NCBI RefSeq assembly: GCF_030549525.1
Contig: NZ_CP130831.1
Span: forward strand, 4,427,501-4,491,500
Length of the DNA: 64,000 nucleotides
Source of the DNA: Stenotrophomonas sp. 704A1
GTDB lineage: Bacteria; Pseudomonadota; Gammaproteobacteria; Xanthomonadales; Xanthomonadaceae
Reading direction: 5' to 3'
Shown: in pieces, positions 1-13,163 of the stretch
Position numbering within the stretch: position 1 is the stretch's first letter
Layout: every line of letters starts with the position of its first letter
Program-made: the position numbers and the translations under genes
Notes under the pieces: generated by a model
What the model saw: the letters and a program-made list of their open reading frames with translations, nothing else
Databases searched by the model: none
Told to the model about the DNA's origin: nothing

Positions 1-2087
1 TCGACGTTGGTCAGGCTCTTGCCCAGGTCCACGTCACCGGCACGGCGCGACTGCCGCAGCAGGTCGGCGATGGCGTTGGTCTCGGCGCAGCGGACCTCAT
101 CGCGATAGCCGCCCAGCTGGGCGAACACGCCGCCGCTGCCCGACTCGGCCAGGCTCGGCGCGCGGAAGCCGGTGGAATAGGTACCGCGCAGCATCAGCTG
201 GTCGAACGCCTGGTACTTGAAGCCGATCTTCGGGGCCACGTTGGCCTTGAAGTTCGGGTACTTGTCCACGCGCAGAGCGGCATCCAGTTCCAGCTTGTCG
301 GTGATCGGCGCCACCGTTTCGGCGAACAGCGCGTAGGTATTGCGCGCACCGTCGAACCACGAGCCACCCTGCTGGGTGATCAGGCCAGCGGCTGCATCCG
401 GGTTGCCGGGGGTGTAGAAGGTTTCGCGGCTGGCATTGAAGCCGAACGCCGCACGCATCTCACCGGCCGGCAGCTGAAACAGCGGACCTTCGATCTTGCC
501 GTCCAGGGTATGCAGGCGGGTCCACGACTGGATGTCGAACGTCGGGAAGGCCTCGCGGATCAACGCACCGTTGGCATCGCTGATCTCGCCGAAGCGGTAG
601 GCGGGGTGGTCGGAAATGATCACCCGGCCGGTGCCCGGATCGATGCTGTACGGACCGAAGGCCTTCTCGAAGCCCTTCAGGTTGACGTTGATGGTCTGGT
701 AGGTGGTCGAGTGCGTGCCGGCGGTGGCAAAGGCGGTTTCCCAGTTCCAGTCACCGACATTGCCGCGCGCGCCGGTCAGCACGCGGTAGCTCTTGTCGGT
801 GTTGCGCTGGCCGAAGTAGTTGGCACCGGCGTCCTGCAGCAGGTACTGCAGGCCGACCACGCCGCCCATCATCGCCTTCAGTTCGGGGCTGGCGTGGTTG
901 TACTCGTTGTTCGGGCCCAGGTACGGGTACAGGAACTGGTTGACCGTGGTGCCGGTATCGCGCGAGAACCAGCTGGTCGGATTGCCGGTGGTGGTGCTGA
1001 ATGCACGCGGCGTACCGCCGTTGGCGCGCAGGTCGATGTCGGTATAGGTGGCCTCGGCGAAGATCTCGGTGCTGTCGCCGACCAGGAAGGTGCCGTTGAG
1101 GTAGGCGGTGTTGCGCTCGGACTTGGCGCCGGCATCGATCTCGTTGTTCATCCAGGTTTCCCAGACGCAACGCGGGCCGGCAGCTTCGCCGACCAGCACG
1201 TTCTGGCACCCCGGCGCGGCTTCCTGCACGCGGCGGCCGGTGACGGGATCGAAGGCGAAGTAGCTGCCCGGATTGAACTGGCCGGGCTTGCTGCCCACGC
1301 CCAGGCGCAGGTTGGTCAGGTAGTTGGGGTTGTTGACGTAGTACTGGTCCGGGCGCTTGTCATAGAAATCGGCCAGCGGGATCGCGTCGCGGCGGTACAT
1401 GTTCACCGCGCCGTAGATGTTGAAGCGGTTCTCGGCCAGGTCACCGAAGCCGGCGGTGATGCTGGCCTGGCGCTCGCCGTAGGAGTCGATGCGCGAGGAG
1501 GTGTCGTTGCTGAAGGTGATTTCCGCGCCCTGGAAGTTGCGCTTGGTGATCACGTTGATCACGCCGGCCACCGCATCGGTGCCGTACACCGCCGAGGCGC
1601 CGTCGGTCAGCACCTCCATGCGTTCGATGGCCGCAGCCGGAATCGCATCGATGTTGACGAACTGGGTCTGGAAGCCGGCCGGCGCACCGTAGTACGACAG
1701 GCGCCGGCCGTTCAGCAGCACCAGGGTGCCCTGTGCGCCCAGGCCACGCAGGTTGGCCTGCGATGCACCGTCGGAGCCGGTGAACAGCGAACGCGAGTCC
1801 TGCTGCGCCGGGCGGGCGGCCGGCAGGTTGTCCAGCACCTGCAGCAGCGTGCGCGCACCCATGTTCTGGATGTCCTGCTTGCTGATCACCTGCACCGGCG
1901 AGGCGGTTTCCACGTCGGTGCGGCGGATGTTGGAACCGGTGACCTCGATGCGGGCCAGATCGGTGGCGTTGTCCTTGCTGTCCTGCGCGAAGGCGGGCGC
2001 AGCGACCGACAGCAGCACGCCGGCGATGGCCAGCGACAGCGGAGCGATGGAACGACAGGGGGGGCGGCGGTGGCGTGCGGGCAACAT
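1..2087 (-). CDS. TonB-dependent outer-membrane receptor (3' part outside window)
   Basis: I read the minus strand from ATG at 2087 leftward without a stop to the window edge, giving 695 codons; the C-terminal barrel end is missing. An AGGAGAG ribosome site lies about 8 bases before the ATG. The first ~35 residues form a signal peptide ending in AFAQ. The plug domain follows, with the LRGLG and LVLLNGRRL signatures and the VYGTDAVAGVINVITK motif typical of these receptors, then barrel-like aromatic repeats. The gene lies directly downstream of the GH31 glycosidase on the same strand. By analogy with Xanthomonas carbohydrate-utilisation loci it probably imports oligosaccharides across the outer membrane with TonB/ExbBD. 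The actual substrate, a GalNAc-containing glycan, is inferred from neighbours only. Confidence 0.9.
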   Translation of the reverse strand, partial: MLPARHRRPPCRSIAPLSLAIAGVLLSVAAPAFAQDSKDNATDLARIEVTGSNIRRTDVETASPVQVISKQDIQNMGARTLLQVLDNLPAARPAQQDSRSLFTGSDGASQANLRGLGAQGTLVLLNGRRLSYYGAPAGFQTQFVNIDAIPAAAIERMEVLTDGASAVYGTDAVAGVINVITKRNFQGAEITFSNDTSSRIDSYGERQASITAGFGDLAENRFNIYGAVNMYRRDAIPLADFYDKRPDQYYVNNPNYLTNLRLGVGSKPGQFNPGSYFAFDPVTGRRVQEAAPGCQNVLVGEAAGPRCVWETWMNNEIDAGAKSERNTAYLNGTFLVGDSTEIFAEATYTDIDLRANGGTPRAFSTTTGNPTSWFSRDTGTTVNQFLYPYLGPNNEYNHASPELKAMMGGVVGLQYLLQDAGANYFGQRNTDKSYRVLTGARGNVGDWNWETAFATAGTHSTTYQTINVNLKGFEKAFGPYSIDPGTGRVIISDHPAYRFGEISDANGALIREAFPTFDIQSWTRLHTLDGKIEGPLFQLPAGEMRAAFGFNASRETFYTPGNPDAAAGLITQQGGSWFDGARNTYALFAETVAPITDKLELDAALRVDKYPNFKANVAPKIGFKYQAFDQLMLRGTYSTGFRAPSLAESGSGGVFAQLGGYRDEVRCAETNAIADLLRQSRRAGDVDLGKSLTNV

Positions 2088-2161
2088 CGGGGTTCTCTCC
2101 TGGCAGGGGTGGCGGCGCGGAAGGCAGCACGAAAGCGATTGGCGGGCAAAACGCTCCCGGG

Positions 2162-2181
2162 CCACGGCTCGGAAGCCGTGG
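2162..2181. other. perfect 8-bp stem-loop between GH31 gene and TonB receptor
   Basis: The sequence ccacggct-cgga-agccgtgg is a perfect inverted repeat with a four-base loop. It lies in the 131-bp space between the stop of the GH31 gene and the receptor start, so a GH31-receptor transcript would carry it. No T-tract directly follows on the minus strand, so it is more likely an mRNA processing or stabilising hairpin, or a weak attenuator, than a full terminator. Confidence 0.4.
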
Positions 2182-2218
2182 TCGGAATGGGCGGGGGAGG
2201 AGCGGTGTTACGAGGGGG

Positions 2219-5200
2219 TCATGGGGCGACGAAGCTGGCGGAGTCGCCCTCCTGGCCGATCAGCACGGCGTTGGCCCAGTTGGCACAGACCTGGGCGGGT
2301 TGGCTGCCCTGCGCACCCAGCGTGCGCAGGCTCAGGGTGGAAAGACCACGGATGTCCAGTTCCGGCTTGACCACGCCGGGCGCCTTCACCAGGCCGCTGT
2401 CGTACAGCAGGCGGTTGTCGCCCCAGACCTGGAACTGCAGGCCGCCGGCGCTGCGGCAGGCGTCATCGATGCCCAGGTCGGCGCGCAGCAGATGCCAGCT
2501 GCCCTGCAGGCGCAGATCGATGCGGCTGGTGGCGGCCACGCCGAGGCCGCGGCGGAACTGCAGGCCGTTCATGCGCATGCCGGCCTCGCCGCTGAACGCC
2601 TTGTCGGTGCGCACCTGCTGGGCCAGCGCGGCCGGCACCGGCAGCTCGGAGAGATAGCGCTGCCGGGCCGGTCGCTCCGGTTCCTGGTGTTCGAGAATGT
2701 GGAAGGTGGACAGCGCGATCGGGCCGACATCGCGCGGCTGCAGCGCATCGAACGCGCGCGCACTTCCCTGCGCCGCTGTCACCATCGGATCGGTACTGCT
2801 GGCACCGTCTCCTTCAGGGTTCTGCACGCTCAACACGCGGAAGCGCAGCAGGCGGCCGGCATGGGCAGGGAAATCGATGCGCTGCACGCCTTCCTTCAGC
2901 TGCAGGCGGCCACGGGCGATCGGCTCGCCCCACTCGCCGTTGCTGTCGCCCAGGTACACCTCGTAGTCGCGCACCTGGCCATGCTTCCAGTTCTTGTCGT
3001 TGCGCGGGGCGATGTCGATGCCGTCGATCATCTTCCGTTCGCCGAAGCCCACCACCCATTCGTGGGCACCGGTACGCACGGCCTGGTTGCGCACGCTGCG
3101 GAACCAGGTGCCCGGGTCATCGTCGAAGGCGTTTTCCAGCGCATGGCCGGGTTCTTCGGCCGGGCGGTTGACCACCAGCAGGCTGTCGGCCGGCAGTTCG
3201 CGGCCCAGCACCGGCGCGGCCGGGTAGGCGTCGTCGGCGGTGGCAGCAGCGACGGCGAAGTCCAGCTGCAGCTGCAGCGGCTGGCGGATGTCCTGGCTGG
3301 CCGTGCGCACGTGCAGCGTGCCCCGGCGTTCGGCGGCATCGAAGTACCAGCCTTCGCTGGCGCTGTTGAACGTGGCCGCATCGGCCAGCGCCGGCAATGC
3401 GCGGCCACCGGCCTGCACCGCACGCGGCGCCTGCCGGCTCAGCACGCGCAGGCCATAGCGGCGCTGCGCCAGCTGGCCCTTGTAGGTTCCCTGCACCGCA
3501 TCGATCTGCACCTGCACCGGGCCACTGCCCTGCGCCGGTGCCTGCATGCGGATCTGCTGCGTGCTCGACTCGCCCTGCTGGTAGCGGCGGGTGTTGCCAT
3601 CGTCTTCGTACAGCGTGTACTGCGAATCACCCTGCGGGTACAGGTCGAACGTCACTTCGTCGAGGGGCTTTTCGCCATCGAACAGCATCGACGGGTACAT
3701 CGGCAGGATCGCACCGGCACGCACGAACACCGGCAGCGTGGCCAGGTCGACCTGGCGATCCAGCTGGCGGCCGTCGGCGGCGGCCTGCACGCGGCGGCCA
3801 TCCCAGTAGTCGATCCAGCCGCCGGCGGGCAGGTGGATGTCGCGGCGCCAGCCGCGGCTGGCGGCCTGGCTGCGGTACACCGGCGCCACCAGCAGGTCGC
3901 GGCCGAGCAGGAACTGGTACTTGTAGGTTTCATCCTGCGCATGCGGATCGCGCGGGTTGTCCCACATCAGGCCACGCACCGGCGGTGCACCGGTCTGCGC
4001 GGCCTCGTGCACCAGGCCGTACATGTACGGGGTCAGGCGCATCTTCAGCTTCAGGTAATCGCGGTTGATGCTGCGGTAGGGCTCGTCGTACCACCATGGA
4101 TGCTTGCGCGCGTTCGACGACCAGCCGCTCATGCCCATCAGCACCGGGGTGAACGCCTTCCACTGCAGGTCGCGGGTGAAGGTCTCGGCGCTGCCGCCGA
4201 AGATCGCATCCACATCGCCGCTGGCGTAGGCCATGCCGGACAGGCCCGAACCGACCAGGGTCGGCACGTGCCAGCGGATGTAGTCCCAGCTGCTGCTCTG
4301 GTCTCCGGTCCAGGCCACGGCATAGCGCTGGATGCCGGCCCAGCCCATCACCGTCCACAGGAACGGGCGCGAGTCGGAATTGTCGAGGATGCCGTTGAAT
4401 GCCTGGCGGTTGGCGTCCATCGCGAACTGGTAGCCCTTGCCGGTCCAGGCCACGTCCAGTTTCTGCACGCGGCTGCCGGCCTTGCCCACTTCCCAGGCGA
4501 TCTTGTCGACGCCGTTCTCGGTCCACAGGCCGGTGCGGAAACCGTAGCCGGCCAGCCCCTTCACCGTTTCCGGCAGCTGCCTGTAACCGCAGCCATAGCC
4601 ATCGTTGGGCAGGATCCAGCCACCGGGCATGTCGTGGGCGCGGTACTGCCTGGCCACGCTGTCGACCACATCCGGCGTGGTACCGGTCGGGCCGTCGCTC
4701 CAGCCTTCGGGCACGGTGCCGGGCTTCTTGCTGTTGTCGCCGTCGTTGTAGCAATCGGCATCGCCGTAGGACAGCGCCCAGCGCGCAACCATGTTCGGGC
4801 GGCCGGTCAGCTGGGTGTAGCGTTCGATCAGCCTGGGCAGGTCCGCGCCCACGAAGTAGTAGGCATCGAAGCGGTCTTCGCGGTGCAGCAGCGTGGCCTG
4901 GTCGCTCTGGCGCAGGTCGTAGCTGCCATCGCTCCAGGTGTTGCGCAGCATGCCCCAGCCGCGGCTGCTCAGCAGCATCGGCGCCGGGCTTGGGCGGTCG
5001 CCCTCTTCCCAGCCGCCGGAATAGGACACCTCCAGCTCGCGGCCCTTGAACTGGTAGCGGCCGTTCTGCTGGCCGCCGCCGTAATAGCCCTCATCGGCCT
5101 GCGAGGACAGCACCTGCACGCTCTGCGCGGCATCCAGGTCCAGCGGCTGCAGTTCCTGCCACAGCGCGGTGGGCTGGCCGTTGTCCAGGCGTTCCAGGCG

Positions 5201-5575
5201 CAGCCGCAGCGGCTGGCGCTGTACGTGCAGTACCAGCGCATCGGTGCGCACGCGGATTTCCTGCGCGTCTTCTTCCAGCTGCGCCTGCACGTTCGCCTTG
5301 GGCTGCGGCAGCACGATCGGTGCGGCCTTGTCGCCGGCACCGGTCAGGGTGCCGTTGCGTCCGGCCTGCACGCGGATGATGTCGCTGGCCGGCAGTTCGA
5401 TGCGGATCCGCGCGCCGTTGTCGGTCTGCAGGTCCCAGCCGCGCACGCCCTCGCCATCGCTGGCACGGACCGAGCGCAGGTTGCCGACGGGTTCGGCCTG
5501 GGCAGTCGTGGCCACCAGCATCAGGGCCGGCAGCAATGCCAGCAGCAGCGGCGAACGACGAACGCAGATTTCCAC
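2219..5575 (-). CDS. secreted GH31-family glycosidase with F5/8C and NPCBM modules, probable alpha-N-acetylgalactosaminidase
   Basis: About 1118 aa. I prefer GTG at 5575 because GGGAG lies five bases upstream; an in-frame GTG at 5596 has no ribosome site. A signal peptide ends in TTAQA, so the enzyme is periplasmic or exported. A GH31 (beta/alpha)8 barrel occupies about residues 240-540, with a candidate nucleophile Asp near 374 (motif KLDVAW) and a candidate acid/base Asp near 425 in WTGDQ. A C-terminal beta-domain, an F5/8-type (CBM32-like) module (~790-925) and an NPCBM module (~975-1110, with FQVW and LLYDSG) follow. The WTGDQ context and the adjacent galactosamine-6-phosphate genes suggest the GH31 branch that releases alpha-linked GalNAc rather than glucose. 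GH31 membership is clear; substrate is inferred. Confidence 0.85.
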   Translation of the reverse strand: MEICVRRSPLLLALLPALMLVATTAQAEPVGNLRSVRASDGEGVRGWDLQTDNGARIRIELPASDIIRVQAGRNGTLTGAGDKAAPIVLPQPKANVQAQLEEDAQEIRVRTDALVLHVQRQPLRLRLERLDNGQPTALWQELQPLDLDAAQSVQVLSSQADEGYYGGGQQNGRYQFKGRELEVSYSGGWEEGDRPSPAPMLLSSRGWGMLRNTWSDGSYDLRQSDQATLLHREDRFDAYYFVGADLPRLIERYTQLTGRPNMVARWALSYGDADCYNDGDNSKKPGTVPEGWSDGPTGTTPDVVDSVARQYRAHDMPGGWILPNDGYGCGYRQLPETVKGLAGYGFRTGLWTENGVDKIAWEVGKAGSRVQKLDVAWTGKGYQFAMDANRQAFNGILDNSDSRPFLWTVMGWAGIQRYAVAWTGDQSSSWDYIRWHVPTLVGSGLSGMAYASGDVDAIFGGSAETFTRDLQWKAFTPVLMGMSGWSSNARKHPWWYDEPYRSINRDYLKLKMRLTPYMYGLVHEAAQTGAPPVRGLMWDNPRDPHAQDETYKYQFLLGRDLLVAPVYRSQAASRGWRRDIHLPAGGWIDYWDGRRVQAAADGRQLDRQVDLATLPVFVRAGAILPMYPSMLFDGEKPLDEVTFDLYPQGDSQYTLYEDDGNTRRYQQGESSTQQIRMQAPAQGSGPVQVQIDAVQGTYKGQLAQRRYGLRVLSRQAPRAVQAGGRALPALADAATFNSASEGWYFDAAERRGTLHVRTASQDIRQPLQLQLDFAVAAATADDAYPAAPVLGRELPADSLLVVNRPAEEPGHALENAFDDDPGTWFRSVRNQAVRTGAHEWVVGFGERKMIDGIDIAPRNDKNWKHGQVRDYEVYLGDSNGEWGEPIARGRLQLKEGVQRIDFPAHAGRLLRFRVLSVQNPEGDGASSTDPMVTAAQGSARAFDALQPRDVGPIALSTFHILEHQEPERPARQRYLSELPVPAALAQQVRTDKAFSGEAGMRMNGLQFRRGLGVAATSRIDLRLQGSWHLLRADLGIDDACRSAGGLQFQVWGDNRLLYDSGLVKAPGVVKPELDIRGLSTLSLRTLGAQGSQPAQVCANWANAVLIGQEGDSASFVAP

Positions 5576-5600
5576 ACGGACTCCCAACCCGTTCACCGGG

Positions 5601-5862
5601 CGTTTCGAAAGCGGTTGGGCCGACTCTAGGGCAGCGATTCGAAAGATGTCAACAAATTGAAAGGAAAAAGGAAGATATATTTAGATGAAACGAAAGTTGG
5701 TGCGGTGCAATACTTTGTGTAATCGCTTGCAGAGGCCTGTTAAGCATTGTGCGATACGGCATTCAGCCCTTTCTTTCGTTTTCTCCGCTGCGGTTCAAGG
5801 CAGAAAGGCAACCCCGCCATATCTTTCTTTTTGCTTTCGGTATTTGACATTTCGAAAGAAAA
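5601..5862. promoter_or_regulatory. array of GAAAG/CTTTC boxes, candidate AgaR-type operators
   Basis: The 300-bp gap between the divergent GH31 and agaS genes is far more AT-rich than the flanking genes. GAAAG occurs at 5607, 5641, 5659, 5692, 5803 and 5854, and CTTTC at 5769, 5773, 5823 and 5834. Two boxes sit inside palindromic TTTCGAAA (5603-5610 and 5850-5857) and one in TTCGAA (5638-5643). E. coli AgaR is a DeoR-family repressor that recognises repeated CTTTC/TTTC-rich sites, and a DeoR gene lies in this locus, so these are likely its operators. I see the repeats directly; the regulator assignment is inference. Confidence 0.7.
5623..5652 (-). promoter_or_regulatory. candidate sigma70 promoter for the GH31 gene
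   Basis: On the minus strand a perfect TTGACA (5652-5647) is separated by 18 bases from TAGAGT (5628-5623). The GTG start at 5575 is about 45 bases beyond. A CTTTCGAA box directly follows the -35 hexamer, so a DeoR-type repressor bound there would block RNA polymerase. Confidence 0.6.
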
Positions 5863-5873
5863 CGCAGATGGTG
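5844..5873 (+). promoter_or_regulatory. candidate agaS-operon promoter with box after the -35
   Basis: TTGACA at 5844-5849 is followed immediately by TTTCGAAAG, mirroring the arrangement on the other strand. The -10 position 17-18 bases later is a poor match (gatggt), so only the -35 is convincing. Transcription from here would give a short leader before the ATG at 5898. Confidence 0.4.
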
Positions 5874-5897
5874 CGGTGGCCCAACTGGAACCTCCGA

Positions 5898-7052
5898 ATG
5901 GACGTCACCCTGCTTTCCGATGTGTCCGCCTGGCAGCGCCGAGGCGGAGCCGATACCGCTACCGAAATCGCCCAGCAGCCGGCGCTGTGGGACTCCCTGG
6001 CGCAGGACCTGTCGCGTGCCCGCGAACGCCTGCAGGCGTTTCTTGGCGACCGCCTCGACGATCCCCGCCAGCGCGTGCTGTTCACCGGCGCCGGCAGTTC
6101 CGGTTTCATCGCCGAAATGGTGGCCGATGCGATCAATGCGCAGTGGCCGGCCGACGTGCGCGTGGTGCATACCACCAGCCTGCTGACCCACCCCGGGCTG
6201 TACCTGCAGCGCGACCGTCCCACCCTGCTGGTGTCGTTCGGCCGCAGCGGTTCCAGCCCGGAAAGCGTGGCCGCGGTGGACCGCGTGCGCAGCGATGTGG
6301 ATGACGCGCGCTTCCTGGACATCACCTGCAACGCCGAGGGCGAGCTGGCCCGTCGCGGCGCCGGCCGCGCCGACACGTGTACCCTGCTGATGCCTTCGGC
6401 CAGCTGCGACCGTGCCTTCGCCATGACCAGCAGCCTGACCTGCATGCTGCTGGCCGCGCTCACCGTGTTCGACCGCGCGCCCTGGGAGACCCGCGTGGCG
6501 CGCCTGAAGCAGATCGCCGCCCTGGCCCGCGAAGGGCTGGCGCACTGGGATGCGCCGGTGGCCGCGCTGGCACAGCGCCCGTTCAACCGCGTGATCTATC
6601 TGGGCAGCGGTCCGCTGGAGGCGCTGGCACGCGAGTGCGCACTGAAGGTGCTGGAACTGACCGCCGGCCGCGTGCTGGCGCTGGCCAACACACCGCTCGG
6701 TTTCCGCCACGGTCCGAAGTCGACGCTGGACGCCGATACCCTGGTGGTGGTGCTGCGCAGTGTGCAGCCGCTGGCGCGCCGCTACGAACAGGATCTGCTG
6801 GAAGAACTGCGCCGCGACGGCGTCGCCGGCCAGGTGCTGGCGATCGGCCCGCATTCGGATATCGGTGCCGATGACGAATACACCCTCACCGTGCCGGCCC
6901 TGGACGACCCGTGGCTGGCGCCGGTATGGCTGGGCTTCGCGCAGCTGTTCGCACTGCAGCGTTCGGCTGCACTCGGGCTGACCCCGGACAATCCGTTCCC
7001 GGACGGCACGGTCAACCGCGTGGTGAAGGGCGTCACCATCCATCATGGCTGA
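5898..7052 (+). CDS. agaS: galactosamine-6-phosphate deaminase/isomerase AgaS (SIS domains)
   Basis: 384 aa from ATG 5898, the same length as E. coli AgaS. The reading frame stays open upstream, but residues encoded before 5898 lie in the operator region. An extra ATG at 5868 is possible. Two sugar-isomerase (SIS) domains are visible: the first with FTGAGSSGFIAEM and SFGRSGSSPESVA, the second with YLGSGPLEALARECALKVLE and the FRHGPKS motif. AgaS converts galactosamine-6-phosphate to tagatose-6-phosphate plus ammonia in the cytoplasm. The gene opens a close-packed operon; its stop overlaps the start of the ROK kinase gene by eight bases. A GlmS-like or NagB-II enzyme is the main alternative, but the gene context favours AgaS. 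Confidence 0.88.
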   Translation: MDVTLLSDVSAWQRRGGADTATEIAQQPALWDSLAQDLSRARERLQAFLGDRLDDPRQRVLFTGAGSSGFIAEMVADAINAQWPADVRVVHTTSLLTHPGLYLQRDRPTLLVSFGRSGSSPESVAAVDRVRSDVDDARFLDITCNAEGELARRGAGRADTCTLLMPSASCDRAFAMTSSLTCMLLAALTVFDRAPWETRVARLKQIAALAREGLAHWDAPVAALAQRPFNRVIYLGSGPLEALARECALKVLELTAGRVLALANTPLGFRHGPKSTLDADTLVVVLRSVQPLARRYEQDLLEELRRDGVAGQVLAIGPHSDIGADDEYTLTVPALDDPWLAPVWLGFAQLFALQRSAALGLTPDNPFPDGTVNRVVKGVTIHHG

Positions 7053-7983
7053 GCTGATCGCCCACGCCTGCTACGGCATCGACATCGGCGGCACCAAGAT
7101 CGAGCTGGTGGCGTGCGATGCGGCGATGCAGGTCGCGTGGCGCCGCCGCGTGACCACGCCGCAGGGCGACTACGACGGGTTCCTGCAGGCGCTGGTGGCG
7201 CTGGTGGCCGACGCCGATGCGGCCCTGGGCCGCAACGACGCCGCCATCGGCATCGCCTTGCCCGGCGTGCGTGACCGCCGCAGCGGTCGCCAGCTCAGCG
7301 CCAATGTTCCCGCGCTGACCGGCCAGTGCGTGGCCGCCGATCTGCAGGCACGCCTGCCGCGTGCCCTGCACTTCGGCAACGATCTGCAGTGCTTTGCGTT
7401 GTCCGAAGCCCATGGCGGCGCCGCCGATGGTTACCCCAGCATGTTCGGCGCCATCCTCGGTACCGGCGCCGGCGGTGGCTTCTGCGTGCAGGGCCGGCTG
7501 CTGTCCGGATTCAATGGACTGGCCGGCGAATGGGGCCACTGGAGCGTGCCGGGCCATCTGCTGCAGCGCCACGGTCTGCCGCTGATCGCATGTGCCTGTG
7601 GCCTGCAGGGCTGCGTGGAGCGCTACGTCTCGGGCAGTGGCCTGGCGATGATCGAGCGCCATCTTGGTGGCAGCGCCCCCGACGCCGGTGCGGTGATCGC
7701 ACTGGCAGAGGCCGGTGATGCCCGCGCGCAGCAGGCACTGGGCATCCATCGCGACCTGCTCGGCCACAGCCTGGCCGCACTGGTGCTGGCGCTGGACCCG
7801 CACGTGATCGTGCTCGGCGGCGGGCTCTCGCAGTACGCGCCGCTGTACCAGCAGCTGCCGGCGGCCGTCGCCGCCCATCTGTTCAATGGCGTGCAGGTGC
7901 CGCCGATCGTGCCGCCACGCTTCGGCGATGCCGGCGGCGCCCGTGGTGCCGCCCTGCTGGCCTGCCAACCCTCGTTTTCCTGA
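7045..7983 (+). CDS. agaK: ROK-family amino-sugar kinase, probable GalNAc kinase
   Basis: 312 aa. The N-terminal phosphate motif YGIDIGGTKIE (residues 10-20) and the zinc-binding CACGLQGC motif (Cys183, 185, 190) with GEWGH (His165) define a ROK kinase. Asp113 in FGND is the expected catalytic base. It would phosphorylate free N-acetylhexosamine delivered by the MFS porter, so deacetylation and AgaS follow. ROK kinases in E. coli (NagK) act on GlcNAc; an AgaK that acts on GalNAc is known from non-PTS proteobacteria. No PTS gene is seen here, which fits. The GalNAc preference is inferred from context. Confidence 0.82.
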   Translation: MAELIAHACYGIDIGGTKIELVACDAAMQVAWRRRVTTPQGDYDGFLQALVALVADADAALGRNDAAIGIALPGVRDRRSGRQLSANVPALTGQCVAADLQARLPRALHFGNDLQCFALSEAHGGAADGYPSMFGAILGTGAGGGFCVQGRLLSGFNGLAGEWGHWSVPGHLLQRHGLPLIACACGLQGCVERYVSGSGLAMIERHLGGSAPDAGAVIALAEAGDARAQQALGIHRDLLGHSLAALVLALDPHVIVLGGGLSQYAPLYQQLPAAVAAHLFNGVQVPPIVPPRFGDAGGARGAALLACQPSFS

Positions 7984-7999
7984 TGTCTGGAGCCTGACC

Positions 8000-9334
8000 A
8001 TGTCCCCGTTGCAGAGCCTGCTTGCCTCCCACCGCGCCGGTGCCAACGTCGGCCTGTACAGCGTCTGCTGCAGCAACGAACAGGTGCTGCGCGCGGCCAT
8101 GCACGTCGCGCAGGCACACGGCACCGTGCTGCTGGTCGAGGCCACCTCCAACCAGGTCGACCAGTTCGGCGGCTACACCGGCATGACCCCACCGCAGTAC
8201 CGCGACTACGTGGGTGCATTGGCCGATGAGGAAGGCTTCCCGCGCGCGCGGTTGATCCTGGGCGGTGACCACCTCGGCCCGAATGCCTGGCAGAAGCGTC
8301 CGGCCGCCGAAGCGATGACCCACGCGCGCGTGCTGATCGAGGCCTACGTCGCCGCCGGGTTCCACAAGATCCATCTGGATTGCAGCATGTCCTGCGCCGA
8401 TGATCCGGTGCCGCTGCCCGATGCCATCGTCGCTGCGCGCTCGGCCGAGCTGGCCGGGATTGCCGAGCGCACCGCCGCCGAACATGGCCTGCCGCCGCCG
8501 GTGTACGTGATCGGTACCGAAGTGCCGATTCCCGGTGGCGAGGCCTCCCTGGCCGACGGCCTGCAGGTGACCACGCCGGCCGCGGCCGCGCAGACCCTGG
8601 CCATCCACCAGCAGGCCTTCGATACGCCACAGCTGCGCGATGCGTGGCAGCGCGTGATCGCCATGGTGGTGCAGCCGGGCGTGGACTTCGACCACAGCAG
8701 CGTGCACGAATACGACCCGACAGCGGCGGGCGAACTGGCCGACTTCCTGGAGCAGCAGCCGCGCATCGTGTTCGAGGCACACTCGACCGATTACCAGCGC
8801 GAAAGTGGCCTGCACGCGCTGGTGCGCGATCACTTCGCCATCCTCAAGGTCGGCCCGGCCGCCACGTTCGCCTACCGCGAGGCGCTGTTCGCACTGGCCG
8901 CCATTGAAGCCGAACTGCTGCCGGCCGCGCAGTGCTCGCGCCTGCCGCAGGTGCTGGACGAGGTGATGGTGGCGCAGCCGAAATACTGGCAGTCCTACTA
9001 CCAGGGCGATGACGCGGCGCTGCGCCTGCTGCGCAGCTATTCCTTCAGCGACCGCTGCCGCTACTACTGGGGCGAACCGGCGCTGGTGCAGGCGGTGCAG
9101 ACCCTGTTCGCCAACCTGGAACAGCACGCGCCGCCGCTGGTGCTGCTCAGCCAGCACCTGCCGGAGCAGTACCGCGCCGTGCGCGAAGGCACCCTGGCCA
9201 ACACCCCCACCGCACTGGTGCAGCACCGTATCGGCCTGTGCCTGGGCGAGTACGCCCGCGCCTGCAGCGCCAACCAGGCCGGAACCCGCAAGCAGAACGC
9301 AAGTTCGGCTGCCGGCGTTCTTGCGAACGGCTAA
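8000..9334 (+). CDS. agaZ: KbaZ/GatZ-family protein (tagatose-bisphosphate aldolase-associated subunit)
   Basis: 444 aa from ATG 8000, chosen because GGAG lies eight bases upstream. The frame runs open further back but only inside the kinase gene. The sequence is GatZ/KbaZ-like throughout: VLLVEATSNQVDQFGGYTGM, ILGGDHLGPN, KIHLDCSMSCADD, VYVIGTEVP and a C-terminal SYYQGDDAALRLLRSYSFSDR. In enteric bacteria this protein supports the class II aldolase KbaY/GatY, and it has also been annotated as tagatose-6-phosphate kinase. No KbaY/GatY gene and no PfkB-type kinase is seen in the window, so the step after tagatose-6-phosphate is either done by this protein or encoded elsewhere. Confidence 0.82.
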   Translation: MSPLQSLLASHRAGANVGLYSVCCSNEQVLRAAMHVAQAHGTVLLVEATSNQVDQFGGYTGMTPPQYRDYVGALADEEGFPRARLILGGDHLGPNAWQKRPAAEAMTHARVLIEAYVAAGFHKIHLDCSMSCADDPVPLPDAIVAARSAELAGIAERTAAEHGLPPPVYVIGTEVPIPGGEASLADGLQVTTPAAAAQTLAIHQQAFDTPQLRDAWQRVIAMVVQPGVDFDHSSVHEYDPTAAGELADFLEQQPRIVFEAHSTDYQRESGLHALVRDHFAILKVGPAATFAYREALFALAAIEAELLPAAQCSRLPQVLDEVMVAQPKYWQSYYQGDDAALRLLRSYSFSDRCRYYWGEPALVQAVQTLFANLEQHAPPLVLLSQHLPEQYRAVREGTLANTPTALVQHRIGLCLGEYARACSANQAGTRKQNASSAAGVLANG

Positions 9335-9361
9335 TCTCTACCTTTCCCCGCGAAACCGAGA

Positions 9362-10144
9362 ATGGCCATGCGCAACACCCGCTCCCGCCGTCAACAGATC
9401 CTGCAGCTGCTGATCGAGCATGGCTCGGTGCAGGTGGCCGATCTGGTCGAGCGCTTCGGCGTGTCGGCGGTGACGATCCGCGCCGACCTGACCCACTTCG
9501 AGTCGCAGGGGCTGGCCAACCGCACCCATGGCGGTGCCACGCTGGTGCGCACGCCGCCGCAGGAGCAGGACATCCATGAGAAGGACGCACTGAACCTGCC
9601 GCTGAAGGAGTCGATCGGCACGGCCGCCGCGCGCCTGGTGCAGTCCGGTGACAACATCATCATCGACTCCGGCTCGACCACGATGACCCTGGCCCGGCAC
9701 CTGCGCGAGCACCGCGATGTGACCGTGATGACCAACGGGCTGAACATCGCGTGGGAACTGGCCAACGCGCCCGGCATCAACGTGCTGCTGACCGGTGGCC
9801 TGCTGCGCCAGCAATCGCTGTCGCTGCAGGGCAGCCAGGCCGAGGCCAGCCTCAACTCCTACAGCTTCGACACCCTGTTCCTCGGCGTGGATGGCCTGGA
9901 CCTGCAGTTCGGCCTGACCACCCACGACGAGGCCGAAGCACGCCTCAACCACCGCATGGTCGAGCGCGCGCGCCGCATCGTGGTGCTCACCGACGCCTCC
10001 AAGTTCGGCCGCGTCAGCCTGCACCGCATCGCCCGCCTGGACCAGATCCACGCCATCATCACCGACGCCGGAATCGACGAGGCGACCCGCGAGGGGCTGC
10101 AGCGGCTGGGCATCGAAGTGATCATCGCCGAGCCTCCCGCATGA
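9362..10144 (+). CDS. agaR: DeoR-family transcriptional regulator, AgaR-like
   Basis: 260 aa. Residues about 5-60 form the DeoR winged helix (QQILQLLIEHGSVQVADLVE, then VSAVTIRADLTHFESQGL). The rest is the sugar-phosphate-sensing DeoRC domain with IDSGSTTMTLARHL and FLGVDGLD. It sits inside the operon, overlapping the deacetylase gene by four bases (ATGA), so it would be autoregulated. Its likely targets are the GAAAG/CTTTC boxes at 5601-5862. ATG 9368 is an alternative start two codons in. Confidence 0.85.
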   Translation: MAMRNTRSRRQQILQLLIEHGSVQVADLVERFGVSAVTIRADLTHFESQGLANRTHGGATLVRTPPQEQDIHEKDALNLPLKESIGTAAARLVQSGDNIIIDSGSTTMTLARHLREHRDVTVMTNGLNIAWELANAPGINVLLTGGLLRQQSLSLQGSQAEASLNSYSFDTLFLGVDGLDLQFGLTTHDEAEARLNHRMVERARRIVVLTDASKFGRVSLHRIARLDQIHAIITDAGIDEATREGLQRLGIEVIIAEPPA

Positions 10145-11253
10145 CCGACACCCGCACCCTGCACGGCCGCATCCTCACCCCGCTGGGCTGGCGCCGCGGC
10201 CAGGTCCATTTTGATTCGCAGGTGCGCCAGCTGCAGGTGGATGACCACAGCGGCAGCGACGATCTGCAGCTGCCGGTGATCCTGCCCGGCTTCATCGACC
10301 TGCACGTGCACGGCGCGGCCGGGGTGGACCTGATGCAGGGTGGCGAGGTGGCGCGCACCATCGCGCGCACCCATCTGCGCTTCGGCACCACCACGCTGCT
10401 GGCAACCACCATGACCGCCGGGCTGGACGAGATCGAGCACGCGCTGCAGGGGGTGGCCGCCACCATGGCGGCGCCGGATGCCGAGGCCGCGTGCATTGCC
10501 GGCGTGCATCTGGAAGGGCCGTTCATCAGCCCGCAGCGGCTGGGCGCGCAGCCCAACAGAACGATCGAGGCGACCCTGGCACTGGTGCAGAAGCTGCACG
10601 CGCTGGCGCCGATCCGGGTGATGACGCTGGCCCCGGAGATCGGCGAACACACCGCGCTGATTCCCGCGCTGTCGGCGCTGGGCATCCGCGTGCAGCTCGG
10701 CCACAGCGCCGGCACCTACGAGGAAGGGGTTGCTGCGCTGCAGGCCGGTGCGTCCGGCTTCACCCACCTGTTCAACGGCATGACCGGCGTCGATCACTAT
10801 CGCCCGGGCATCGCCGCGGCGGCACTGGCACATGCGCAGTACGCCGAAATCATCCCCGACCTGCAGCACATCCATCCGGGCGTGATCCGCCTGGCAGCGC
10901 GCGCGATCCCGCGCCTGTACGCGGTGACCGACGCCACCGCCGCCACCGGCATGCCCGATGGCGAGTACGCGCTGGGCGAGCAGCGCGTGCACAAGTGCGG
11001 TGGCTGCGTGCGCCTGGCGACCGGTTCGCTGGCCGGCAGCGCGCTGACCATGGACCAGGCGCTGCGCAACCTGGTGCGCGTGGGCCTGGAGCTGGCCGAC
11101 GCCTCGCAACGGGTTTCCACGTTCCCGGCCGACTACCTGGGCCTGGACGATCGCGGCCGCATCGCGCCCGACGCCCGCGCCGACCTGGTGGTGCTGGATG
11201 CCGAACTGCGCCTGCAGCAGGTGGTGGTCGGCGGGCGGGTAATCGATTTGTAG
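10141..11253 (+). CDS. agaA: N-acetylgalactosamine-6-phosphate deacetylase (NagA family)
   Basis: 370 aa, starting in the ATGA overlap with agaR. The amidohydrolase metal and substrate motifs are present: DLHVHG (His55, His57), HLEGPF (Glu125), QLGHSAG (His188), THLFN (His209) and VTDATAATG (catalytic Asp264). It removes the acetyl group from GalNAc-6-phosphate, feeding AgaS. NagA and AgaA are the same family, so the GalNAc label rests on the adjacent agaS and kbaZ-like genes and on the absence of a nagB. Its TAG stop lies inside the GTAG head of a SMAG-type palindrome. Confidence 0.83.
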   Translation: MTDTRTLHGRILTPLGWRRGQVHFDSQVRQLQVDDHSGSDDLQLPVILPGFIDLHVHGAAGVDLMQGGEVARTIARTHLRFGTTTLLATTMTAGLDEIEHALQGVAATMAAPDAEAACIAGVHLEGPFISPQRLGAQPNRTIEATLALVQKLHALAPIRVMTLAPEIGEHTALIPALSALGIRVQLGHSAGTYEEGVAALQAGASGFTHLFNGMTGVDHYRPGIAAAALAHAQYAEIIPDLQHIHPGVIRLAARAIPRLYAVTDATAATGMPDGEYALGEQRVHKCGGCVRLATGSLAGSALTMDQALRNLVRVGLELADASQRVSTFPADYLGLDDRGRIAPDARADLVVLDAELRLQQVVVGGRVIDL

Positions 11254-11320
11254 AGTCGAGCCATGCTCGACTGACCGCGAATGGCGCGGCAAAGCAGTCG
11301 AGCATGGCTCGACTTTACAG
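11250..11320. repeat. SMAG/REP-type palindrome pair
   Basis: Two hairpins face each other: agtcgagc-cat-gctcgact at 11254-11272 and agtcgagc-atg-gctcgact at 11296-11314. They are led by GTAG, which shares the TAG stop of agaA. The pair separates agaA from the MFS gene and could modulate the downstream transcript. Its stem sequence differs from the ccgggcatggcccgg type found elsewhere in the window. Confidence 0.75.
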
Positions 11321-11360
11321 AAAGCAATCCGCACCGAAACGCCGCACAGGAAACCTGTCG

Positions 11361-13163
11361 ATGACTGCACGCACCGCCCCGCGCTGGCCCGTTCGCTACC
11401 TGCTGTTCATCGGCGGCCTCGGCGGCCTGCTGTACGGCATCGACATCGGCATCATCGCCGGTGCCCTGCCCTACCTCGAAGCGACCGCCAGCCACGCCTG
11501 GCAGCTCAGCAGCCAGCAGCTCGGTTTCGTCGTCGCCGCCGTGCTGCTGGGCAGCGTGCTGTCCTCGCTGTTCGCCGGCATGGTTGCCGACCTGATCGGC
11601 CGTCGCGGCGCGATGCTGCTGGCCGGACTGCTGTTCACCGCCTCGATTCCGATCATGGCACTGGCCTCCGGCTACACGCCGCTGCTGCTGGGGCGGCTGC
11701 TGCAGGGCATCAGTGGCGGCCTGATCGGCGTGGTCATTCCGCTGTACCTGGCCGAAGTACTCAGCCCCGAGCGCCGCGGCCGTGGCGCGGCGATGTTCCA
11801 GCTGCTGCTGACCGTTGGCCTGGTGCTGGCAGCCCTGATCGGCCTGTACCACGCGCACGCGGTGGATGCCGCCGCCGAAGCCGTGCGTTCGCTGCCGGTC
11901 GCGCAGCAGGCACAGGAACTGTTCACGGTGAAGGACCACGCCTGGCGCACCATCTTCTGGACCTGCCTGGCACCGGGCCTGCTGTTCTGCGCCGGCATCT
12001 TCTGGCTGTCCGAGTCGCCGCGCTGGCTGGTACGCCGTGGGCGTATCGATGATGCCCGTCGCAGCCTGCAGCGCGTGCTGCCGACTTCGGAGGTCGAGCC
12101 GACGCTCGCACAGATCCAGGCGCCCGAATCCAGCAGCAACAGCGGCAGGCGCGACCCGCTGCTCAGCCGCCGCTACGTGGTGCCGTTCCTGCTCGCCTGC
12201 GTGGTACTGGCGTGCACCCAGGCCACCGGCATCAACTCGGTGCTGGCCTACGCGGTGAACATCCTCAACCAGGCGGGCCTGTCCGGCTCGGTGGCCAATG
12301 GCGCCGACGTGGCGATCAAACTGCTCAACGCGGTGATGACCGTGGTCGCGCTGCTGCTGGTCGACCGCAAGGGCCGCAAGTTCCTGCTGATGCTCGGCAG
12401 CGGCGGCATCTGCGTGGCCCTGCTGGCAGCCGCCACGCTGTTCTTCCAGGCCGAGCGCGGGCGGACCGACGTGCAGCCGCAGCTGCAGGCGGCGGTCAGC
12501 GGCGATGGTCTGCAACTGGTACTGGATGATGCGCAGTGGCAGCGCCTTGGCGCTGGCATCGACAGCGAAGGCCGGCCGCTACAGCTGACCGTATCGTATG
12601 CCTATGGGGACTTCGCCAATGTGCGCGCCCTGCGCAGCGACAACCTGACCGACCGCGAACTGCGCATCGAGCGCACCGGCACCGTGCAGCCGGACAGCGT
12701 GATCAGTGCGTTCTTCCGCACGCTGCACCTGAACCCGTTCCCCGACCCGGCCAGCGCCGCGCAGGCGCCGCTGCGCATCGAGCAGGCGCGCATCGGCCCG
12801 GTGCCGCCACCGGCCCACGGCTGGGCGGTGGCCGCCTGCATCCTGGTGTTCGTGGCGTTCTTCGCGGTGGGCCCCGGTGTGTGCGTGTGGCTGGCGCTGT
12901 CGGAGCTGATGCCCAACCGCATCCGCTCCAACGGCATGAGCATCGCGCTGCTGATCAACCAGTTCGTGTCCACCACCATCGCCGCGATCTTCCTGCCCAC
13001 GGTGGGACACTACGGCTACGCCAGCATGTTCGTGTTCTGGGCGGCGTGCACGTTTGTGTTCTTCCTGGTGGCCGCGTTCTGGCTGCCGGAGACCAAGGGC
13101 AAGTCGCTGGAAGAGATCGAAGCGCGGTTCGCGGGCAAGCAGGGCGCGGGGAGGGCCGACTGA
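11361..13163 (+). CDS. MFS sugar porter with large periplasmic insert, probable GalNAc permease
   Basis: 600 aa from ATG 11361, although the frame is open far upstream inside agaA. Twelve membrane segments can be traced. Sugar-porter signatures include GRRGAMLLAG after TM2, RLLQGISGG, PLYLAEVLSPERRGRG, WLSESPRWL, VDRKGRKFL and a C-terminal LPETKGKSLEEI. Family members are usually 450-500 aa. The extra length is a ~124-residue soluble segment between TM9 and TM10 (residues 363-486), on the periplasmic side, plus a ~30-residue loop between TM5 and TM6. It lies downstream of agaA across a palindrome pair and likely imports the sugar freed by the GH31 enzyme. Confidence 0.87.
   Translation: MTARTAPRWPVRYLLFIGGLGGLLYGIDIGIIAGALPYLEATASHAWQLSSQQLGFVVAAVLLGSVLSSLFAGMVADLIGRRGAMLLAGLLFTASIPIMALASGYTPLLLGRLLQGISGGLIGVVIPLYLAEVLSPERRGRGAAMFQLLLTVGLVLAALIGLYHAHAVDAAAEAVRSLPVAQQAQELFTVKDHAWRTIFWTCLAPGLLFCAGIFWLSESPRWLVRRGRIDDARRSLQRVLPTSEVEPTLAQIQAPESSSNSGRRDPLLSRRYVVPFLLACVVLACTQATGINSVLAYAVNILNQAGLSGSVANGADVAIKLLNAVMTVVALLLVDRKGRKFLLMLGSGGICVALLAAATLFFQAERGRTDVQPQLQAAVSGDGLQLVLDDAQWQRLGAGIDSEGRPLQLTVSYAYGDFANVRALRSDNLTDRELRIERTGTVQPDSVISAFFRTLHLNPFPDPASAAQAPLRIEQARIGPVPPPAHGWAVAACILVFVAFFAVGPGVCVWLALSELMPNRIRSNGMSIALLINQFVSTTIAAIFLPTVGHYGYASMFVFWAACTFVFFLVAAFWLPETKGKSLEEIEARFAGKQGAGRAD

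Follow-up and report, generated by a model that had tools for sequence, protein, structure and literature searches.

The window analysed here is a stretch of 64,000 nucleotides (positions 4427501-4491500) of the single-contig 4.69 Mb chromosome of Stenotrophomonas sp. 704A1. Its first 13,163 nucleotides hold a gene cluster that continues past the left edge. Judging from its sequence, the cluster is quite likely an AgaR-controlled regulon for alpha-linked N-acetylgalactosamine (GalNAc), equipped with two alpha-N-acetylgalactosaminidases and with a catabolic tail in which KbaZ acts as an epimerase without the usual kinase and aldolase. The DNA itself shows which genes are present, how far they are conserved, to which families their products belong and that the catalytic residues are kept, and the kinase and aldolase families usual for this tail are missing from the genome. 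From these data we infer the enzymatic activities, their localisation, the direction of transport, induction by GalNAc or GalNAc-6-phosphate and the epimerase role of KbaZ.

In the proposed route, AgaR would control genes for terminal alpha-linked GalNAc and would presumably respond to GalNAc or its 6-phosphate. A TonB-dependent receptor would bring alpha-GalNAc glycans across the outer membrane. A retaining glycoside hydrolase of family 31 (GH31) with carbohydrate-binding domains and an NAD-dependent GH109 enzyme with a signal like those of twin-arginine translocation would then free GalNAc in the periplasm. The sugar may be imported by a porter, phosphorylated to GalNAc-6-phosphate by a ROK-family kinase and deacetylated in this form by a NagA-type enzyme. 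AgaS would convert galactosamine-6-phosphate to tagatose-6-phosphate and ammonia. Finally KbaZ alone, as a metal-dependent C4-epimerase, would turn tagatose-6-phosphate into fructose-6-phosphate, with neither a tagatose-6-phosphate kinase nor a tagatose-bisphosphate aldolase taking part. The features of the locus are as follows.

8000..9334, plus strand: kbaZ/agaZ, predicted tagatose-6-phosphate/fructose-6-phosphate C4-epimerase (PF08013, 5.5e-186; TIGR02810, 603 bits, cut-off 569)
2219..5575 (frame open to 5596), minus strand: candidate exported GH31 alpha-N-acetylgalactosaminidase (Pfam and Nag31A similarity; signal peptide by eye)
L002:15193-16602, about 0.9-2.3 kb left of the window, minus strand: GH109 gene (PF21252, 3.8e-81)
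1..2087, minus strand: N-terminal two thirds of a TonB-dependent outer-membrane receptor, whose gene extends some 889 bases beyond the left window edge (PF07715, 1.7e-21; PF00593, 1.7e-15)
5597..5897 (301 bases): divergent promoter region, whose ten CTTTC/GAAAG boxes are presumed AgaR operators (dinucleotide shuffles)
9362..10144, plus strand: agaR, DeoR-family predicted repressor of the locus (NCBIfam NF040755 AgaR equivalog, 331.6 bits, cut-off 260)
5898..7052 (start 5898 or 5868), plus strand: agaS, putative galactosamine-6-phosphate deaminase/isomerase, an AgaS-like SIS protein (TIGR02815, 8.8e-120)
7045..7983, plus strand: agaK, predicted ROK-family N-acetylhexosamine kinase (PF00480, 9.6e-61)
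10141..11253, plus strand: nagA/agaA, candidate GalNAc-6-phosphate deacetylase (TIGR00221, 229 bits, cut-off 225.65; solved NagA 2vhl, 4.3e-48)
11361..13163, plus strand: sugar porter of the major facilitator superfamily (MFS), presumed inner-membrane GalNAc importer (PF00083, 2.5e-88; TIGR00879, 272 bits, cut-off 238)

KbaZ and the missing kinase and aldolase

In E. coli, and according to the reviews, tagatose-6-phosphate receives a second phosphate and KbaY/GatY or LacD then cleaves the bisphosphate, KbaZ/GatZ serving as an accessory subunit (PMC3668189, PMC12118421, PMC5583593). The KbaZ protein of the window is likewise annotated as a non-catalytic aldolase subunit. A profile search of the genome returned no match for class II aldolases (PF01116; 11 of 14 control genomes matched) and none for LacD-type aldolases (PF01791; 13 of 14 controls matched). 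Among the six PfkB-family members of the genome, which fit best to fructokinase, ribokinase, 2-keto-3-deoxygluconate-type, nucleoside, pyridoxal and hydroxymethylpyrimidine kinases, no LacC-like kinase was found, the top LacC score being 35 against a cut-off of 469 bits. By these PfkB scores and the PF01791 search, we rejected the idea that another part of the genome supplies a LacC-type kinase or a LacD-type aldolase. The earlier note on this DNA had described the pathway as complete. All of its gene types are indeed there, but the dedicated route from tagatose-6-phosphate to trioses, via the usual kinase and tagatose-bisphosphate aldolase, is missing from the genome. To be complete, the pathway needs either an epimerase function of KbaZ or housekeeping enzymes as stand-ins.

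In a contig scan with one genome per species, the best 80 of 196 relatives were kept, with up to 10 kb on each side of the GH31 gene. These loci come mainly from Xanthomonadaceae and Oxalobacteraceae and span Stenotrophomonas, Lysobacter, Luteimonas, Pseudoxanthomonas, Thermomonas, Vulcaniibacterium and Rudaea as well as Massilia, Janthinobacterium, Duganella, Rugamonas and their kin. Matches by tblastn were obtained for agaS in 78 of the 80, agaR in 78, kbaZ and the kinase gene in 77 each, the receptor in 70, nagA in 69, GH109 in 66 and the porter in 61. E. coli KbaY matched none of the 80 at 1e-10. The catalytic KbaY/GatY partner of a KbaYZ/GatYZ class II aldolase was found neither in our genome nor in these loci, and with PF01116 missing from the genome a KbaZ-KbaY aldolase was ruled out. 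PF01116 was also searched in 24 genomes behind named loci. It exceeded the cut-off in none of 15 Xanthomonadaceae genomes (one match lay under it), and all nine Oxalobacteraceae genomes had exactly one member each. The identity of these members to E. coli KbaY is about 32%, measured across a longer stretch, so we class them as Fba-like.

At the level of the order, 45 of 248 sampled genomes carry kbaZ and 22 of 248 have PF01116 over cut-off. The kbaZ-bearing genomes include one with PF01116 over cut-off (G045), two with a match under it (G028, G145) and 42 with none. In a class-level sample, PF08013 was detected in 8 of 377 genomes, two of them with weak matches not counted as KbaZ (G372 and G559, 35-43 bits) and three shared with the order sample. 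The strong matches outside the order lie in G389 and G602, which gave no PF01116 match, and in G543, which has one. Ten kbaZ neighbourhoods were taken from the 50 genomes with PF08013 (the 45 of the order sample and five more), G389 and G602 included; two of them (L114, L119) encode a KbaZ identical to that of L062 and L057 among the 80 loci. All ten carry an agaS match, and neither KbaY nor GatY matched any of the ten at 1e-8.

Support for a catalytic role comes from E. coli. There, deletion of gatZ abolished tagatose formation, which was restored by gatZ or kbaZ together with the phosphatase HxpA but not by gatZ alone, nor by kbaY, gatY or fbaA with HxpA (PMC11907403, from 2025). Plasmid-borne gatZ or kbaZ yielded grams per litre of tagatose in a gatY- kbaY- strain in which chromosomal gatZ and fbaA remained, and enzymes of Sinorhizobium, Agrobacterium and Caldilinea are cited as having tagatose-6-phosphate 4-epimerase activity (PMC11907403). 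The same source assigns H88, H257 and E171 of GatZ to the metal and D87 as the base, and lists K279, E44 and C20 as unlike class II aldolases (PMC11907403). The KbaZ described here has all seven residues, as do E. coli KbaZ and every one of the 77 loci that carry kbaZ (numbering checked on E. coli GatZ). Our protein thus shares with the GatZ/KbaZ C4-epimerases of E. coli, Agrobacterium, Sinorhizobium and Caldilinea its family, PF08013 (tested for E. coli), and the seven E. coli GatZ residues. In contrast to it, the known enzymes act in galactitol or tagatose routes or in engineered strains, and a dedicated role in GalNAc breakdown is not described in the accessible portion of PMC11907403.

The retention of kbaZ beside agaS without an aldolase partner, together with the intact metal site, is best explained if KbaZ is an enzyme in its own right. 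GalNAc would then probably enter metabolism as fructose-6-phosphate and not as trioses from tagatose bisphosphate. It seems fairly probable that GalNAc catabolism ends in this way, through KbaZ alone and without kinase or aldolase, in Xanthomonadaceae, and probably also in Oxalobacteraceae and some other Lysobacterales. Only two solved relatives of KbaZ were found, 2fiq (415 bits) and 3txv (374 bits), the latter presumably a Sinorhizobium protein. In a KbaZ tree of 34 rows, the E. coli rows stand on long branches, and their position is given no weight.

The GatZ/KbaZ family has by turns been labelled kinase, aldolase subunit and epimerase, and genomes with kbaZ beside agaS but without class II aldolase make an epimerase role directly testable. 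If the role proposed here is true, an entire natural clade would be mislabelled when GatZ/KbaZ is called an aldolase chaperone, and genomes without a partner would be a natural test of that label. GalNAc would moreover have a branch to fructose-6-phosphate that parallels the N-acetylglucosamine (GlcNAc) pathway and is unlisted in the available parts of PMC5583593 and PMC12118421. The literature searched, mostly titles and opening lines of abstracts with few subscription papers, contained no account of this locus or of a GalNAc route via tagatose-6-phosphate epimerase. We consider the release and uptake part to be already known in kind and the tail free of kinase and aldolase to be the new part.

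Release, uptake and control of the locus

From a divergent region of 0.3 kb, the minus strand carries leftward the GH31 gene (2219-5575) and then the TonB receptor gene, which runs from 2087 past the window edge. Rightward on the plus strand follow agaS, the ROK kinase gene, kbaZ, agaR, the NagA-type deacetylase gene and the MFS porter gene, ending at 13163. The 8-base overlap of agaS and the kinase gene and the 4-base overlap of agaR and nagA indicate an operon-like arrangement. Given its recurrence in relatives, the arrangement of the cluster is not due to chance. The earlier note had named six gene types, from receptor to AgaS, and open reading frames (ORFs), Pfam and NCBIfam locate every one of them where it had placed them. 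Its list was correct as far as it went but overlooked agaR.

The GH31 protein consists of N-terminal, barrel and C-terminal GH31 parts joined to DUF5110, F5/8C and, at the C terminus, NPCBM domains (PF01055, PF21365, PF17137, PF13802, PF00754, PF08305). Its best solved relative is Nag31A (6m76, E 9e-109, 368 bits). All three Nag31A sequences (6m76, 7f7r, 7f7q), which we take to be from Enterococcus faecalis, score 364-368 bits and the next solved GH31 protein 168 bits, so that among solved structures it is nearer to Nag31A than to other GH31 enzymes by 200 bits. NCBIfam offers alpha-xylosidase as best label, among others, all far under cut-off. In the alignments, a single residue (D, N or A) sets the three deposited Nag31A sequences apart. 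This is presumably the mutated nucleophile, and its counterpart here, D381, is thus the predicted nucleophile. D432 in the WTGDQ segment (numbering of the frame from 5596) is the predicted acid/base, a role we assume from general knowledge of GH31. Both residues are conserved in 80 of 80 related loci. The protein is 96% identical to one labelled S. geniculata and 96% identical to its counterpart in S. maltophilia D457, which places the source with the maltophilia group of Stenotrophomonas. It shares with Nag31A the catalytic domain, the nucleophile and the WTGDQ segment, but the solved structure carries the name of an LPXTG wall-anchor protein, whereas here we find a predicted exported enzyme of a Gram-negative bacterium with a C-terminal NPCBM domain. 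These similarities make it a candidate alpha-N-acetylgalactosaminidase of the Nag31A group.

The second candidate enzyme lies beyond the receptor gene. The receptor has a full frame of 1017 codons without stop in the chromosome (its ATG start at 2087 was picked by eye), and the GH109 frame starts ten bases past it. The GH109 product reaches 492 bits to the solved alpha-N-acetylgalactosaminidase 2ixa and, from the likely start MKRREF, shows a twin-arginine-like signal by eye. NCBIfam has no fitting GH109 model, its best label under cut-off being levoglucosan dehydrogenase (44 bits). GH109 and GH31 enzymes are unlike in fold and in mechanism. The presence of two independent alpha-N-acetylgalactosaminidase families in one cluster is therefore strong evidence for a substrate with alpha-linked GalNAc. 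A GalNAc route that bypasses the phosphotransferase system (PTS) and includes a GH31 alpha-N-acetylgalactosaminidase, as first proposed for this locus, is thus backed at the sequence level by Nag31A as closest solved relative, by the invariant D381 and D432, by the GH109 neighbour and by AgaR.

AgaR is 52% identical to E. coli AgaR. CTTTC repeats are reportedly the AgaR consensus sites of Leyn et al. 2012. The divergent region contains ten CTTTC/GAAAG boxes, at 5607, 5641, 5659, 5692, 5769, 5773 (overlapping 5769), 5803, 5823, 5834 and 5854, against a mean of 1.4 in dinucleotide shuffles, and 0 of 1000 shuffles reach ten. Across the 73 of the 80 loci that have both flanking genes and a gap of 100-700 bases, the mean is 6.8 boxes per gap versus 1.35 in shuffles. 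The boxes between the divergent arms fit the presumed control by AgaR.

As for the cytoplasmic genes, the AgaS-like protein stays below the TIGR02815 cut-off (400 versus 529 bits) and has the solved relatives 3odp and 3c3j. The ROK kinase matches best the NCBIfam model of N-acetylglucosamine kinase, with 288 bits below a cut-off of 380, and the solved N-acetyl-D-glucosamine kinase 7p7i. Ahead of the last transmembrane helices of the porter, at about 12450-12800 of the window, an extra hydrophilic stretch of some 100 residues is seen by eye, and the Sugar_tr match is split into two stretches. Between nagA and the porter gene lies an inverted repeat at 11250-11316 (GTAGAGTCGAGCCATGCTCGACT ... 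AGTCGAGCATGGCTCGACT) that is similar to repetitive extragenic palindromic elements and, we assume, resembles the SMAG repeats of S. maltophilia.

Not every locus is built alike. Two Thermomonas loci (L052, L055) showed neither agaS nor kbaZ inside the stretch examined. The Rudaea locus (L062) has distant aga matches (kbaZ 50%, agaS 35%) in a different gene arrangement, and no receptor match was found in the stretches of L049, L051 and L058. Seven loci (L039, L040, L049, L051, L053, L058 and L065) keep agaR-kbaZ-kinase-agaS-GH31 with no NagA or porter match in the stretch. Other deacetylases and importers may be in use there; scanning of some flanking ORFs of L039, L040 and L051 yielded no candidate substitute for either.

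The glycan from which GalNAc is taken is a separate question. The earlier note had read the locus as possibly mucin-foraging. We lean slightly towards a source other than mucin, such as a bacterial exopolysaccharide or O-antigen, fungal galactosaminogalactan or invertebrate mucin, that is, towards scavenging of environmental glycans. Such a source is compatible with the proposed route and competes only with the mucin interpretation. The locus is common to Lysobacter, Luteimonas, Massilia, Janthinobacterium and Duganella, and the genera sharing it live mostly in soil, water and plants. Such a distribution across soil and water genera speaks against a role mainly in the use of animal mucin. Fungal galactosaminogalactan is a further possible source of GalNAc. 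A source other than mucin is also favoured by the matrix networks of galactose and GalNAc that Microbacterium oxydans makes in a soil consortium whose members include S. rhizophila and X. retroflexus (PMC11985002). On the other hand, S. maltophilia, which is found on humans too, contributes many of the 80 loci. Mucin, in turn, is favoured by the GH31 alpha-N-acetylgalactosaminidase BT3169, which attacked mucin stripped of sialic acid but did not act on the A antigen (PMC11992087). Pfam scans of 20 ORFs that flank the genes in nine selected loci of relatives detected no mucin-degrading family and instead DUF3472 proteins, receptors and regulators; the GH101 profile used to search our own genome matched 0 control genomes. 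Mucin as the source is a guess, though mucin-type GalNAc would fit the characterised enzymes.

Alternative routes and points against the proposed one

Several observations weigh against the proposed route. The genome contains one pyrophosphate-dependent phosphofructokinase (637 bits) and one class I fructose-1,6-bisphosphate aldolase, which might carry tagatose-6-phosphate to trioses. The aldolase match was flagged with one TGA, which is taken as an alignment end and not as a broken gene, the ORF list giving an open 381-codon frame that bears the aldolase sequence. One PfkB-family gene reaches 122 of the 420 bits required by a model of tagatose (not tagatose-6-phosphate) kinase. As the genomes of the order are related, the 44 of 45 without PF01116 over cut-off represent far fewer independent events. 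The E. coli data were obtained in vivo, and their authors write that the epimerase activity is low and put the mechanism forward as a hypothesis to be tested (PMC11907403). The seven residues are family-wide, which tells us that KbaZ could act like GatZ and not that it does. AgaS and the kinase fall below their cut-offs, so the specificity for galactosamine over glucosamine leans partly on context. Finally, 14 of the 80 loci are without GH109 (in three of them the stretch breaks off on the relevant side), 19 without the porter, 10 without the receptor and 11 without nagA, counts that include stretches ending before the missing gene could lie; parts of the locus are therefore replaceable.

A classical tail, in which the pyrophosphate-dependent phosphofructokinase phosphorylates tagatose-6-phosphate, the class I aldolase cleaves the product and KbaZ is a helper or a relic, would draw on precisely those two single housekeeping genes. 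It agrees with the description of E. coli KbaZ as a subunit that the aldolase needs in vitro to be fully active and stable (PMC3668189), and with PMC5583593, which names the route to trioses as the sole GalNAc pathway described. We nevertheless regard it as unlikely. A helper of KbaY would lack a partner in a genome without KbaY or any other PF01116 member, but 77 of the 80 loci retain kbaZ along with its metal-site residues, and the other Lysobacterales kbaZ neighbourhoods examined also carry an agaS match. The epimerase role of KbaZ accommodates these facts better.

That the locus serves GlcNAc or amino sugars in general, with GH31 as an ordinary alpha-glucosidase or xylosidase, is very improbable: kinase and deacetylase do score highest against GlcNAc models and the GH31 label is alpha-xylosidase, under cut-off, but Nag31A leads all other solved GH31 proteins by 200 bits, and AgaR, the AgaS-like protein, KbaZ and GH109 indicate galactosamine. 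The preference for galactosamine over glucosamine expressed in the earlier note accordingly holds in its direction, by the same four proteins, and is weakened where it relied on AgaS, which like the kinase stays below its model cut-off.

Related systems and neighbouring features

A non-PTS GalNAc pathway is known from Shewanella, with an outer-membrane transporter, the permease AgaP and the kinase AgaK (PMC12118421). Our locus resembles it in the outer-membrane transporter, the permease and the kinase that replace the PTS (PMC12118421), and in AgaS. Outer-membrane receptor, permease, kinase, deacetylase, AgaS and AgaR are found here together, AgaS and kinase by similarity. It differs in the linked exported GH31 and GH109 enzymes, the permease of sugar-porter type and the NagA-type deacetylase. 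Leyn et al. 2012 are also said to have placed AgaR with CTTTC motifs in the Shewanella-type pathway. A further difference concerns the tail. Our genome is without tagatose aldolase or LacC-like kinase, whereas AgaZ was once proposed as the tagatose-6-phosphate kinase in the scheme of Leyn (PMC12118421).

The E. coli aga/gam cluster is similar in agaR (52% identity), kbaZ (56%) and agaS (43%), but E. coli has a PTS and kbaY adjoining agaS, and here no KbaY match is found. In Bacteroides thetaiotaomicron, GH31 and GH109 enzymes both free GalNAc from mucin (PMC11992087). BT3169-GH31, BT4243-GH109 and the BT4240 kinase parallel our locus in the two enzyme families, periplasmic release and phosphorylation by a kinase; in contrast, BT3169 and BT4243 are far apart and import is of the Sus type (PMC11992087), while in our member of the Pseudomonadota a single TonB/AgaR cluster holds both genes. 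The conserved cluster would join two unrelated alpha-N-acetylgalactosaminidases with GalNAc uptake and catabolism in an opportunistic pathogen and many environmental relatives. The new Nag31A-like and GH109 candidates could be useful for stripping alpha-GalNAc from glycoproteins.

Next to the GH31/GH109 genes of Oxalobacteraceae and of Luteimonas/Lysobacter relatives, a DUF3472 protein is found repeatedly (L069:21216-22673, L064:19358-20719, L070:8676-10004, L039:16506-17897, L037:17146-18945). Four of the five contain DUF5077, and the one in L037 has a ricin-B lectin domain. It is a candidate partner in the attack on alpha-GalNAc glycans. The locus in an assembly titled Bacillus subtilis SK7B5 (L047) has the identity of an S. 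rhizophila relative (GH31 79%, nagA 92%, GH109 92%), and this assembly is probably contaminated or mislabelled. Farther to the left of our locus (L002, that is G000:C1:4410000-4426000) lie genes for a short-chain fatty acid transporter (PF02667), UbiA, a C92 peptidase and an M3 peptidase, along with a second TonB receptor with an AraC regulator. The fatty acid transporter of our own genome would fit the acetate freed by deacetylation.

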